From an uncultured Bacteroidota bacterium (GTDB lineage Bacteria > Bacteroidota > Bacteroidia > Bacteroidales > UBA12077): a stretch of 36,269 bases of DNA. Numbering within the stretch: position 1 is the first letter of the stretch; each line of letters begins with the position of its first letter. Positions 1 to 17,782 of the stretch are shown here, one piece after another. The stretch spans positions 1-36,269 of the forward strand of contig CAJXLE010000007.1 of NCBI GenBank assembly GCA_913055895.1, written 5' to 3'. The notes under the pieces were generated by a model. That model was not told where the DNA came from and searched no databases. It saw only the letters and a list, made by a program, of their open reading frames with translations. The position numbers and the translations under genes are program-made.

Positions 1-3000
1 CCTCAAGCTCTTGAAGCCGGTGACCGTGGATATTTCAAAAAACTATACGGTTACCCTGATGCCGGCTGATAAGAGAGGAAAGAAAGATAAAAAGGCTACC
101 TATCTGAATTTTGACTGTGAGGGTTTCCGTGATGTTCAGGCCTACGGCATGGTTAAGTTTTCGAGGAATCTGGTTAAACCCATGAACAAGAACGGTAAGG
201 TCAGTCAGCAGGATACTCTGGCGGCTACTTTTTCAACCGCTTTTAAGAACTGGGATAATTGGGTAGCCAAACTGGATTTTTCTTCCCTGCCTGCCGGAGT
301 GAACGCTACCAAAAAGCTGGCAACCCAAAAGTTCGGTTATGTCAAGCTGCCCGGTTATACCTTCAACGTTCAAACGGCTTACCTGGATCATTCCTCCAAA
401 GAAGATATGTTCAAGAAGGCCGGCGGCGGGAGTAGTCCGGCTGGTCTGAATGCAGGTGCCGGATGGCAGGGTGTATACCTGAGCAGCGCCGATGTATGGT
501 TGCCACAGTTCTTCAGCAAAAAGAAATCGAACACTAAAGGATCGGGCGGCAGTTCATCCCAGAACTCTTCCGGAAAAAATGACCGCATACGCATCACCGG
601 CGATCAGCTGGCCATTGGTGCGGGCGGTGTGAGCGGTCACATCTTTGCCACCGATCTGATCGACCAGGGGTCCCTGGACAACATGCCGGTCTCCATCGAT
701 ACCCTGGATGTGAAGGTAGAAAAGAACATGCTCAGGACGGCCAGGATGACCGGTGGATTGACCATCCCTTCTTTTAAAGATCCACTGGGTTATGAGGCCG
801 ATATCACCTATGTCAACCAGCAGGCCTCCTACAACTTTTTCCTGGAGACCAGGAACACCATGCGGATTCCCATGTGGCTGGTTACGGCCAACCTGAATCC
901 CAACTCTAGGGTTACTCTGAACATCCAGGGCAACAACGTGGATTTTCAGGCGGTGCTTAATGGTAAGTTTTCTTTCGACCGCAGCCTTGGTAAAGTGCCA
1001 GGTGTTGCTATGAATGATCTCAGGTTTCAAAATTTTAAAATTACCAACCGCGATCCGTACCTGGACATCAACAATTTCGGCATTAATACCAACGCAAAAG
1101 CCCCGAAAGTAGTGGGATACCCAACCGACCTGAAAAATATCGATGTTCAGTTCGGTCAGCAAAAATACTATGCCAACCTGGGTTTTGATCTGCGCTTCAA
1201 CCTTTCCAAAGGGCTGAACCAGGTCTCCGGTGAATCGGAAGTAAGGCTTTACAGTGAGATCAGAACCAATCAGAATCAAGGTGGAACGTCTATCCCGGAA
1301 TTCAAATTCAAGCGGGCCGAGATTGACTCCATCAAGCTGAACGCCCAGTTTGGGCCCATGAAGATACTGGGTTCGCTCAACATGTACAAGAACGATCCCA
1401 CCTTTGGAATGGGCTTTGACGGCGACCTGGAAATGAATGTGTTCGGCACCCAAAACTTTAAAGGCAATGCCCTTTTCGGGCGCAAGATGCAGGCCAACAA
1501 CCAGGAGCTTCGTTACTGGTATGTCGACGGCATGGCCACGTTTTATCCCATGGGGATCCCTTTTGCCAAACCCCTGGCTTTTTATGGTTTTGGCGGAGGG
1601 GCCTATTTCAACCTGGTCCAGAAATCGCAGGTGAGCTCCTCCAAACTCAAGAGCAAGTCGCTTACTCAGAATCCCAACGTGCGCCAGCGCTACAAACCCC
1701 AGAAGAACACCCTGGGCATGAAAGCCTCTACGGTTATCGGCCTGGAAGGTGAGCCTTTCATTCTGAATGCCGATGCCACCCTGGAGGCAGCCTTCAGGCG
1801 CAATCCTTTTGGTGTGAAATCCCTGGGCTTCACCGGCGATGCCTATGCCCTGACCGGGGTCCGCAAAAGGGGCAACGCTCCGGTCAAAGGCTCTGTTTCC
1901 GCCGAATATTTGAACAACATCTTTGATTTTCAATCTTCTTTCGATGTGCGCATACCTTACGGAACGCCAGTGGTAAAAGCCAACGGCGACCTGCGTTTTC
2001 ACCTGAATGGCAATACCAATTACTGGTACCTTCATTTTGGAACTCCCAACAACCGGGTAGGCTATTCGCTGGGTCTTGGAAAGCTTCAAATCGCTAAGTC
2101 TTCGGGCTATTTAATGGCCGGGGAGAAACTTCCTTCGCCCAGCATACCCAATAAGATCAGCAATTACCTGGGTGGATATACTTCCAGCCTGAACCAGGCG
2201 AACCTGGTGGGCAAAGGATCCGGGGTAGCTGCCGGACTGAAGTTTGAATCCGGGTTTGATCTGGGTGGCAAAGTAGCCCGCGTAGAGGGCGACATCATTG
2301 CCGGTGCCGATATCACCCTGACCAAATATGATCCCTCGGTATTGTGCAATGGCAACAGCGACTTCGGACTGGATCGTTGGTATGCCATGGGCCAGGGTTA
2401 TTTCTACGGCAACCTGGGCTTTTTCGTTGCCCAAAAGGAGATCCTGGGCACCACAGCAGGATCGGTGGTTGAAGTCGGCCTGCCCGATCCGGTGGGCGTA
2501 AAAGGTCAGATTAAGGCCGACCTGGTCGTTCTTGGCAAGTCGCTGGTCTTTAATCAGAAATTCACCATGGGCAGTATCTGCGATTTTAATGTGAAAGGGG
2601 GCGGATCGGTTTCGGTCAGCTCGCCTGTCGAAAGGATGCAGTTCATCTCTTCCGTCACACCCAAAGATCATCAGAAGGGCGTAGGGCTGTTTGTCGAGCC
2701 CACCATCACCTTTAACCGGGGTATCTACCACGATTCTAAGATGAGTTTTACCTACTCCGATGGCAAAGGTGGAACGAAAAAAGCCACTTACCGCTTTGAT
2801 GTTTCCTATACCTGGGAGAAAGAATATCAGCCGGGCAGATGGACCGATATCTACCGGAACCTGGATGATCAGATCATGGAAGACTACGACAGGAATAGCG
2901 AGATGCTTACTCTGACGCTCAAAGAGAATGTGGGTTCGTTGGCTTCCAGGGATTACCGGAAAATTATGCTGGAAGGCAATACCCGTTACCGGTTGAAAGC

Positions 3001-10854: not shown

Positions 10855-13239
10855 CTATAGCATGTTGCCTATTCGGATCCCGAAATGAATGGTACGGGGT
10901 TCGGATGGGCCATATATGTAGCCCGGGTCGCGGTCGATGCCCCGGTCGAAATCGCCCTGGTAGGAGTTGAACATGTTTGCTATACCTGCCGAGAGCTCCA
11001 TATTGGTCTCTTCGTTGATGCCTACCGTGTAAGTCAATTTGAGGCCCAGGTCAAAGAATCGGGGTGACCTGCGCAGGGTGCCTTCTTCAGGGTTGGCCAG
11101 TTCGTTGCCGAAATAGGGCACAAGCATCCGGCCGGTATAGCTTCCCGAGGCGGAGATGCCCAGCTTTTCGGTAGGATCCCAATCCAGGTTCATGTATCCG
11201 TAATCATCGGGTGTGCGGAAGAAAGCCTCCTTGTTGAAGGCATGGGGGCTCTGGTAATCGCTGGTCTGGATGGTGAAGCCACCAGTAAAGGAGACCTCGC
11301 CGGCCGGCACCAGGTTCATCTCCAGGTTGACGCCCTGCACCACGGCGCCGTTGTCGGAGTTGATGCGGGTATAAACCACCGTCCCGTTCTCATTGGGTGA
11401 GCCAAAATCATTGACAAAAGCATCTTGCAGGTGGGTATAGAAGCCTTCCACCAACAGGCCCAGATAGGTGCTGCCCAGCTGGGCGTTGTAGTCGAGTGAA
11501 GCCATGTAGCTGTGGCTGGTCTCCTGGATCAGATCCGAAGCGTTGCGGTGGATGACCTTGCGGGCCCCGGAGGTTTCAATGTGCAGATCTTCATCGTAAA
11601 TTTGGGGAGCCCGGTAACCCTGGGAGTAGCTAACCCGGGCCTGGAGCGATTCCCTGACGTCGTACTTCAGGGTGAGGCGAGGGCTCAACACATTGCCGGA
11701 TACGCCACCGCCATCTTTTTTCTGGTCGGTTATCCGGTAATGGTCGTACCGCAGACCGGCCGATATTTTCCAGTTGTCCCAGGAGTATTTGTACTGCGCA
11801 AACATACCCAGGGTGTTGGTGACCTGGTCGGCAATAATGCGGTCTTCGGTATAGGGAATGCTCACTGTGGAATCGGCAAAGTTGATCTCGGCATTGTCTA
11901 TATCCGGATACCCCATCTTGCGGTCTTCGAGCCAGGCTCCCTTGTCCTCTATGCCCAGGATGAGGTTGGATTCCCCCAGCGAAGCATTGTACTGGGCTCC
12001 CACGCTGAAGGAGAAATCCTCCGTCCGGCCATAGTCGCTCAGCGATCGGTTGGCCCCGTAGTACGAGTCTCTATCCACCCGCTGACCGGAGGCATACACC
12101 GAGAGCTTGTCCTTTTCCCGGAAGAACCGGTCGTAGGTCAGGGCCCCGGTGGTGATGTTGTGGGTGAGGGCTTCGGCTATGCCGGCCATGTGCGGCAGGG
12201 CTTCATGTTTGTTGCCGCCCCGCCGCTCTTCGTTGATGTGGAAGAAGTCGGCCGTCAGCTTTTGCCGGGCACCAAAACGGTGAAACAACCGGGCGCCGGC
12301 GGTGATGTTCTTCAGGGAGGTTATCTCAGAGAAGCCGTCGCCGTTGGCATCGAAGGGTTGGCGGTCGCGGTAGAACCCATAAAGGGCCATGCCCGATTTG
12401 TTGTCGGAGGAGACCAGCGAGGTGTTGAACGTGGCACTGTAATCAGAGGCAGGATCGCCCGGGCCATCCAGCCCGATGCCCGTCGATCCCCCGTCGATGC
12501 CAAACTCATAAGCATTGTTGACGGGGTCCTTCAGGATCAGGTTGATGGTCCCGGCAATGGCGTTGCTGCCATAGAGGGCCGAACCGCCACCGCGGATCAC
12601 CTCTACGCGCTCTATCATGTTGGAGGGAATCAGTTCCAGTCCATATACCCCGGCCAGGCCGCTGAAAATGGGCCGGCTGTTGATCAGGATCTGTGAATAG
12701 GGTCCTTCCATGCCGTTCATCCGAACCTGTGTGAAACCACAATTCTGACAGCTGTTTTCCACCCTTACACCGGGGGTGAAAGTCAACCCCTCGCTGAGGG
12801 TCTTCGATTGTGTGGTTTCAAACAACTTGGGCTTAAGGGAGTTGACTATTACAGAGGATTTTTTCCGGGGGGTGCCGGTGCGGTCACCGGTGACCACCAC
12901 TTCCTCCATGTTGAGTACATCTTCCTCCAGCTTGAAATTGATCTCTTTCTGCTGGCCCCGCTTGATTTCTATTTGGGTGCTTTTGGGCCGGTATCCCAGG
13001 CTGTTGGCCTGTAACACATGGCTCCCCTCCGGCAAACCGGTCAGGGTATAATGACCCGACTCGTTGGTGATGGTTCCAATGGTGGTCCCTTCCACCGTCA
13101 CCGAAGCAAATGGAATGTGTTCGCCTTTCGAATTGACAATGTTTCCTTTTATCAGTATGTTGGTCTCATCGCCGTCAGCAAGTGATAGGTTGGGTAGGGA
13201 TAATATGATGGATATAAGTATGATGGTTATGCGCTTCAT
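10855..13239 (-). CDS. TonB-dependent outer-membrane receptor with carboxypeptidase-like regulatory domain
   Basis: Signal peptide; N-terminal GNIVNSKGEHIPFASVTVEGTTIGTITNESGHYTLTGLPEGSHVL; plug ENSCQNCGFTQVRMNGMEGPYSQILINSRPIFSG..IERVEVIRGGGSALYGSNAIAGTINLI; beta-barrel. Confidence 0.95.
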   Translation of the reverse strand: MKRITIILISIILSLPNLSLADGDETNILIKGNIVNSKGEHIPFASVTVEGTTIGTITNESGHYTLTGLPEGSHVLQANSLGYRPKSTQIEIKRGQQKEINFKLEEDVLNMEEVVVTGDRTGTPRKKSSVIVNSLKPKLFETTQSKTLSEGLTFTPGVRVENSCQNCGFTQVRMNGMEGPYSQILINSRPIFSGLAGVYGLELIPSNMIERVEVIRGGGSALYGSNAIAGTINLILKDPVNNAYEFGIDGGSTGIGLDGPGDPASDYSATFNTSLVSSDNKSGMALYGFYRDRQPFDANGDGFSEITSLKNITAGARLFHRFGARQKLTADFFHINEERRGGNKHEALPHMAGIAEALTHNITTGALTYDRFFREKDKLSVYASGQRVDRDSYYGANRSLSDYGRTEDFSFSVGAQYNASLGESNLILGIEDKGAWLEDRKMGYPDIDNAEINFADSTVSIPYTEDRIIADQVTNTLGMFAQYKYSWDNWKISAGLRYDHYRITDQKKDGGGVSGNVLSPRLTLKYDVRESLQARVSYSQGYRAPQIYDEDLHIETSGARKVIHRNASDLIQETSHSYMASLDYNAQLGSTYLGLLVEGFYTHLQDAFVNDFGSPNENGTVVYTRINSDNGAVVQGVNLEMNLVPAGEVSFTGGFTIQTSDYQSPHAFNKEAFFRTPDDYGYMNLDWDPTEKLGISASGSYTGRMLVPYFGNELANPEEGTLRRSPRFFDLGLKLTYTVGINEETNMELSAGIANMFNSYQGDFDRGIDRDPGYIYGPSEPRTIHFGIRIGNML

Positions 13240-13363: not shown

Positions 13364-13720
13364 TCAGCAGATAGGAGGATCGCGGCCCTGGTGGCTGAAA
13401 AGGGCGGCCGAATAAATGGGTATGATGTTGTGCAACGATCTTTTTACCGGACCAAAGACGGGTAAGGTGAGAAGGGCCAGGAAGATTAATGGAAACAGCA
13501 CTTCCAGGATATTCAGGAATGCAATCTGCGCTTTGCTGTGTTGGTGTGTTTGGGAGGGCTCATCATCTGATGAAGTGTTGTAGGGATGGGAATGGGTAAC
13601 AGAACGTCCGTTGATATGGTGGGTGTGCTTGTATACGGCTTCATTGGTCACCAGCAATCCCACAAACAGGATGAGCAGCAGGGCAAAACCTTTTTTTGTT
13701 ATTTTGTTAACATCCGTCAT
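13364..13720 (-). CDS. Small His-rich membrane protein, putative metal-associated
   Basis: ATG at 13720 (MTDVNKITKKGFALLLILFVGLLV...). His cluster YKHTHHINGRSVTHSHPYN...QTHQHS, second TM segment, RDPPIC tail. Lies upstream of the TonB receptor on the same strand. Confidence 0.7.
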   Translation of the reverse strand: MTDVNKITKKGFALLLILFVGLLVTNEAVYKHTHHINGRSVTHSHPYNTSSDDEPSQTHQHSKAQIAFLNILEVLFPLIFLALLTLPVFGPVKRSLHNIIPIYSAALFSHQGRDPPIC

Positions 13721-13903
13721 CGCTTGCAAATATAAAATCTTTTTGGAAATCTTTGCCTCCCCAGATGTTGGGATTTTACTGGAAAGCTTTTTCAGCTTAA
13801 CAGCCAGAATTCTTTTTTCTGCCTTTAGAGCCATACAATGATTCAGGATGGGGGCACTGGTTTAAAATCCCTCCCGCCGTTTTGATGGAGACCTTTTGTT
13901 TGC

Positions 13904-17299: not shown

Positions 17300-17782
17300 C
17301 TAGTCATGCGGATGCTTGTGGAAATAGGCATCCGCAAACTTGTCCACCGTATCCCTTAGTTTTTCAATGTACTGCAGGTCGGTGGTTTGCTTGGCCTTCA
17401 TGGCATACACCTGGATCTCATGCAGCAGCTTGAGACGGGTCACGTACTTCTCATGGGCCTCCTCGTTTTCTGGATCAACCGGCTTGATGCGCTGATGCAG
17501 GAAATACTGGCTGACGATGTCCTGTATTTTTACCGCGTGGTCTTCTTTGTTGGTGATCCACCTGACCAGCTGGTTGTAATTCTTGTCTCCTTCCCGGGAA
17601 AGCTCTTTTATTTGATTCATGGACTTTTCCAGTGTCCTGATGTGCTCTTCGATCTGTTCGATCCTCAGCGAATCACCATAGATGCCGCATGGAATCTCAC
17701 AGTGTGCTTGTGCGGGCTTGTTCTGTGCCATGAATAAAATGGCGGACATAACCAGTGTGAAAACAATGTTTTGAATTTTCAT
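17300..17782 (-). CDS. sodN: Nickel superoxide dismutase, with Sec signal peptide
   Basis: MKIQNIVFTLVMSAILFMAQNKPAQA|HCEIPCGIYGD. This matches the NiSOD hook HCxxPCGxY, followed by a helical domain with LVRWITNKEDHAVKIQDIVSQYFLHQRIKP. Confidence 0.93.
   Translation of the reverse strand: MKIQNIVFTLVMSAILFMAQNKPAQAHCEIPCGIYGDSLRIEQIEEHIRTLEKSMNQIKELSREGDKNYNQLVRWITNKEDHAVKIQDIVSQYFLHQRIKPVDPENEEAHEKYVTRLKLLHEIQVYAMKAKQTTDLQYIEKLRDTVDKFADAYFHKHPHD

Follow-up and report, generated by a model that had tools for sequence, protein, structure and literature searches.

The window, the whole stretch of 36,269 nucleotides analysed here, comes from an uncultured Bacteroidota bacterium and carries a gene of the sodN type on its reverse strand (Table 1). 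The encoded protein is matched by the Pfam family Sod_Ni (PF09055) with 108 bits (E = 6e-31; gathering cut-off, 25), and the source genome (3.3 Mb, 94% complete) has no other Sod_Ni gene. Downstream of the stop codon, a terminator-like hairpin hints that the gene is transcribed on its own; the consensus scan for terminators found three sites, against 2.0 expected in shuffled sequences.

An operon or conserved partner was considered and rejected. The neighbouring genes (DUF6599, DUF362, a His-rich membrane protein and a TonB receptor) are common to the two nearest relatives only, the TonB receptor also occurring in L046, and an AhpD-like gene adjoining sodN is kept at only one distant locus. 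The small His-rich protein (HTHHINGRSVTHSHP...HQH) has no Pfam match and lies beside the TonB-dependent receptor; L032 and L033, the two nearest relatives, have retained both genes, which may serve in metal uptake. A search of phages gave no match. Weak Sod_Ni-like matches of 22–24 bits, under the cut-off, occur in four genomes of one genus, within open frames of 389–418 aa, covering profile positions 12–123 with the hook not included.

Table 1. Positions of the features discussed, in window coordinates or, with a prefix, in those of other contigs and loci.
Feature	Position	Strand	Basis
sodN-type gene, 160-aa precursor, ATG start	17300..17782	(-)	ORF and PF09055 match
Sec-type signal peptide, 26 residues, MKIQNIVFTLVMSAILFMAQNKPAQA	17705..17782	(-)	Sequence and geometry in 82/83 relatives
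Nickel hook HCEIPCGIY, mature residues 1-9	17678..17704	(-)	Invariant residues in 57 aligned proteins
Mature enzyme, 134 residues, four-helix bundle	17303..17704	(-)	AlphaFold2 model and PDB structure matches
Terminator-like hairpin, 3' of the stop codon	17235..17262	(-)	Consensus scan
His-rich small membrane protein	13364-13834	(-)	
TonB-dependent receptor	10855-13239	(-)	
Superoxide reductase, leaderless, one copy (outside the window)	G000:C26:16185-16526 (L117:1480-1926)		
Spacer-type NiSODs	L056:5492-6022, L057:5860-6396, L063:597-1169, L078:5887-6411, L102:1080-1637, L104:5875-6399		
CPC-type (copper-like) P-type metal ATPase adjoining a spacer-type NiSOD	L056:3154-5289, L057:3445-5610, L063:1383-3575, L104:3461-5581		
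Weak Sod_Ni-like matches	L022-L025, match 1501-1824		

Nickel hook and fold

The window protein contains an HCxxPCxxY hook with the predicted nickel-ligand positions of NiSOD (His1, Cys2 and Cys6). In an alignment of 57 proteins, H1, C2, P5, C6, G7, I8 and Y9 are invariant. The AlphaFold2 model of the mature part (mean pLDDT 91.5) is a four-helix bundle with a floppy N-terminal hook, and its top 16 PDB structure matches are all NiSOD at a probability of 1.00, with TM scores of up to 0.67 (query) and 0.77 (target). A PDB sequence search with the single window protein found no NiSOD, and a profile search against the PDB matched only the hook region of 1q0d.

The NCBIfam sodN equivalog TIGR02753 was not reached (41.4 bits versus a cut-off of 90; the Nonomuraea SodN scores 163). 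The position of Asp3 in the Streptomyces enzyme is occupied by Glu in 54 of the 57 aligned proteins, including that of the window, while Arg39 and Tyr62 align to the invariant Arg48 and Tyr67 of the signal-peptide type. Glu17 and Arg47, which hold His1 in the Streptomyces NiSOD structure, align to Ile18 and to the invariant His56; as the alignment is uncertain at such a distance, a changed second shell around His1 is only a lead.

This distance from characterised NiSODs (the missed sodN cut-off, Glu3 and the altered His1 partners) counts against reading the window protein as an exported NiSOD. The cut-off and Glu3 would equally suit a protein that is exported and cut at His1 but is not mainly a nickel SOD, being instead a periplasmic metal binder or an enzyme of another metal on the NiSOD fold. 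Such a role could also draw on the failure to find nickel importers of the NicO/CbiM family in the genome, on the CPC-type ATPases adjoining the subgroup of relatives with a spacer before the hook, and on exported N-terminal-His proteins of other folds that, according to PMC12537917, bind Ni or Cu for transport. However, the invariance of the three ligands together with Pro5, Gly7 and Tyr9 in the 57 proteins, and the retention of the NiSOD fold in both the model and the PDB matches, make this reading unlikely.

The leader and its junction with the hook

The original prediction, made from the window alone, had described a hydrophobic signal peptide ending in AQA and followed immediately by HCEIPCGIYGD, and both are present in the frame. 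The leader MKIQNIVFTLVMSAILFMAQNKPAQA consists of an n-region (MKIQN), a hydrophobic core (IVFTLVMSAILFMA) and a c-region (QNKPAQA) that directly abuts the hook, with the predicted cut AQA↓HC falling between positions 17705 and 17704. Two criteria were used to place the cleavage site, the (-3,-1) rule for signal peptidase I and conservation among relatives. Within the c-region the rule is satisfied at AQA↓HC only, the alternative cuts after FMA and KPA placing a bulky or charged residue at -3. A lipoprotein was rejected, as there is no lipobox and the Cys comes after QAH; an internal start at Met12 or Met18, which would leave 15 or 9 residues, was likewise discarded, since kin keep the full leader. 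Across signal-peptide proteins generally, His makes up 2.6% of residues at mature position 1 (PMC12537917).

A scan with one genome per species returned at least 541 relatives, from which 80 loci were kept; together with a set from the same order and one plasmid hit, these gave 89 distinct proteins. Because the scan favoured HCE[IV]PCGI proteins resembling that of the window, the share of the signal-peptide type among all NiSODs is not deducible from them. The leader directly abuts the hook in 83 of the 89 proteins, from about 15 phyla. All 83 leaders are hydrophobic (the weakest core averages 2.2 on the Kyte-Doolittle scale) and, counted as kin rather than as independent observations, 82 of them combine A, S or G at -1 with A, S, G, T, V, L or I at -3. 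Position -2 and the core vary freely while -1 and -3 are fixed, which is the pattern predicted for a signal-peptidase site; judged by sequence, this geometry is not chance. Of 393 genomes of the same order, 20 had a sodN match above the cut-off in a profile search independent of the N-terminus, and in all 20 a leader of this type abuts the hook. The best signal-peptidase site of the window protein does leave His as residue 1, one of the two points on which the original prediction would stand or fall, and it is kept in 82 of the 83 relatives.

In the remaining six proteins (L056, L057, L063, L078, L102 and L104), some 15–27 residues separate the likely cut from the hook, for example MLKKSFLFVLFSILSLGLAHA↓QSLQNNNTTISELQHQINALEEM-HCEVPCG. 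Their hosts are Chitinophagales, Saprospiraceae, Flavobacteriaceae and unclassified Bacteroidota. In the tree, a loose group takes in five of these proteins, and the sixth is placed elsewhere. With such a spacer before His1, signal peptidase alone cannot free the hook, implying either a second protease or a nickel site that would do without the N-terminal amine. A CPC-type ATPase gene is adjacent at four of the six loci, divergent in three and in tandem in one, and at about 75 other loci it is within reach only once, three genes away.

These six relatives count against the preferred reading of the window protein in that export and His1 exposure can apparently be uncoupled. They also lend themselves to a scheme in which the leader is only an export signal that is cut elsewhere, a second periplasmic protease then trimming the protein to His1, for the spacer forms need such a step or must forgo the N-terminal amine. 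For the window protein and its nearest kin, however, AQA or ADA stands directly before His1, and the alternative cuts after FMA and KPA violate the -3 rule, so that trimming by a second protease is very improbable there.

SodX and the site of maturation

No S26-type SodX gene lies in the window, as had been stated, and none was detected elsewhere in the source genome, of which 6% is missing. The SodX model TIGR02754 has a single, weak match there (19.8 bits), to the signal peptidase I that the genome encodes. A profile search found no SodX in the 19 other sodN genomes of the order, some of which contain short and very weak matches to the model (155–211 aa, at most 22 bits). Nor was any found in 49 named relatives, where only two matches reached E ≤ 1e-5; both have the architecture of signal peptidases, and the one that was family-scanned also belongs to that family. 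In all, no convincing SodX was found in 69 sodN genomes, the source genome included, and no SodX-like gene adjoins any of the signal-peptide sodN genes examined.

As a control, the model picks up the protease adjoining sodN in Nonomuraea (53.9 bits) and Novosphingobium (41.3 bits), both under the curated cut-off of 63.25. Since genuine SodX beside sodN scores 41–54 bits, this cut-off is too strict to use alone, and each match was assessed on its architecture and on the rival score it earned as a signal peptidase. Surveys relying on it would undercount SodX.

A very divergent SodX could have been missed by the search, and this bears on the possibility of a cytosolic NiSOD, whose leader would be the propeptide of an unrecognised SodX-like protease or would contain the true start of translation. 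SodX is a relative of signal peptidase I with similar site preferences, the propeptides of Nonomuraea and Novosphingobium end in ASA and AQA, and even genuine SodX falls under the curated cut-off. Nevertheless, the hydrophobic core present in every relative here is absent from SodX-type propeptides such as MLARLLRPKHVASA, the starts at Met12 and Met18 would leave the short remnants already described, and no sodN gene of the set has a SodX-like neighbour. A cytosolic enzyme seems extremely improbable.

We consider it probable that the window protein is an exported NiSOD whose His1 is freed by the housekeeping signal peptidase I, which the source genome encodes, and without SodX. The nickel site needs the free amine and imidazole of His1. 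For the window protein we infer export, the position of cleavage, nickel loading outside the cytosol and SOD activity. Sec would carry the unfolded precursor over the inner membrane, and signal peptidase I would cut after AQA, leaving His1-Cys2-Glu-Ile-Pro-Cys6 at the N-terminus, so that a single cut would both deliver the enzyme and create the two His1 groups of the nickel site. As Sec exports unfolded chains, nickel would have to be loaded after export, outside the cytosol. Counting against this reading, the two free thiols of Cys2 and Cys6 would have to escape disulfide formation in an oxidising compartment, the step that is hardest to account for.

That one cut exports the enzyme and makes the nickel site, as originally proposed, is thus supported for the window protein, although the spacer forms indicate that His1 exposure in this way is not universal. 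The proposal of an exported NiSOD without SodX is supported as well but is not peculiar to the source genome; the window gene adds to a widespread NiSOD subgroup that has been little described. Of the nickel uptake genes, whose genome-wide search had been suggested alongside that of sodX, two importer families (NicO and CbiM) were looked for and not found, an absence of little consequence if the enzyme receives its nickel after export.

Neither an Fe/Mn-SOD nor a Cu/Zn-SOD was found in the source genome. It encodes a superoxide reductase and may have no SOD other than the NiSOD. The lack of a leader on the reductase fits a division of labour in which the NiSOD would dismutate superoxide in the periplasm and the reductase would guard the cytosol. 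Among the 20 sodN genomes of the order, 17 have an Fe/Mn-SOD and two of the remaining three a superoxide reductase; among 20 sister genomes without sodN, the numbers are 15 and the other five. The persistence of these enzymes beside sodN indicates that the NiSOD in this order is an addition, not a replacement, as expected for an enzyme acting outside the cytosol if, as we infer, the usual defence is cytosolic.

Lineages of NiSOD and known systems

In a tree of 60 proteins, a very long branch (support 100/99) parts 57 of the signal-peptide type from only three of the SodX type. The former come from 14 phyla, or 15 with Ilyobacter; many are metagenome-assembled, so that single phylum assignments may be wrong, and the inner branches are mostly weakly supported. 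With about even confidence, we propose that NiSOD comprises two deep lineages, one cytosolic and cut by SodX, the other exported, processed by the general signal peptidase, given its nickel outside the cytosol and spread over some fifteen phyla, together with a Bacteroidota branch whose exported propeptide would need another protease.

Should this maturation route hold, NiSOD can do without a dedicated protease, and in many anaerobic or marine lineages the SOD of the periplasm would be a nickel enzyme, not a Cu/Zn-SOD. Missing sodX in some cyanobacteria has been read as casting doubt on whether their NiSOD can be used (PMC8346466), an interpretation that would then not extend to signal-peptide forms. 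The route also raises the chemical question of how two thiols remain reduced and acquire nickel in the periplasm. Further work would be best spent on the maturation split and on the spacer type.

The combination of signal peptide and NiSOD is not new in kind. In the accessible text of PMC12537917 (Nat Commun 2025), the signal peptide and His of the planctomycete Roseiconus lacunae SOD_Ni served as a search seed that retrieved many NiSODs; no discussion of SodX, phylogeny or activity of the exported NiSOD was found in that text, and earlier descriptions of signal-peptide NiSOD may exist. The proteins of R. lacunae (WP_230780104.1) and Ilyobacter polytropus (WP_013389192.1, 53% identical to the window protein) belong to the same Pfam family and have a Sec-type leader ending in A or S that abuts the His-Cys hook, so that, other than in phylum, they differ from the window protein in nothing essential.

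The Streptomyces coelicolor SodN (PDB 1T6U, 1Q0D) shares the hook residues His1, Cys2, Cys6 and Tyr9 and the four-helix bundle. However, it is only about 19% identical over the structural match, is separated by the deep branch, and has a propeptide, short and not hydrophobic, that is removed by SodX; no SodX was detected in the source genome. The ubiquitin-NiSOD fusions of algae (PMC6332867) likewise have a removable N-terminal part and no described SodX, although that part is ubiquitin and the hosts are eukaryotes; by analogy, removal of ubiquitin would expose His1. Finally, in the exported N-terminal-His metalloproteins LPMO, CopC and DUF4198, as presented in PMC12537917, a signal peptidase cut likewise creates the His metal ligand, on folds and for functions unrelated to those of NiSOD.
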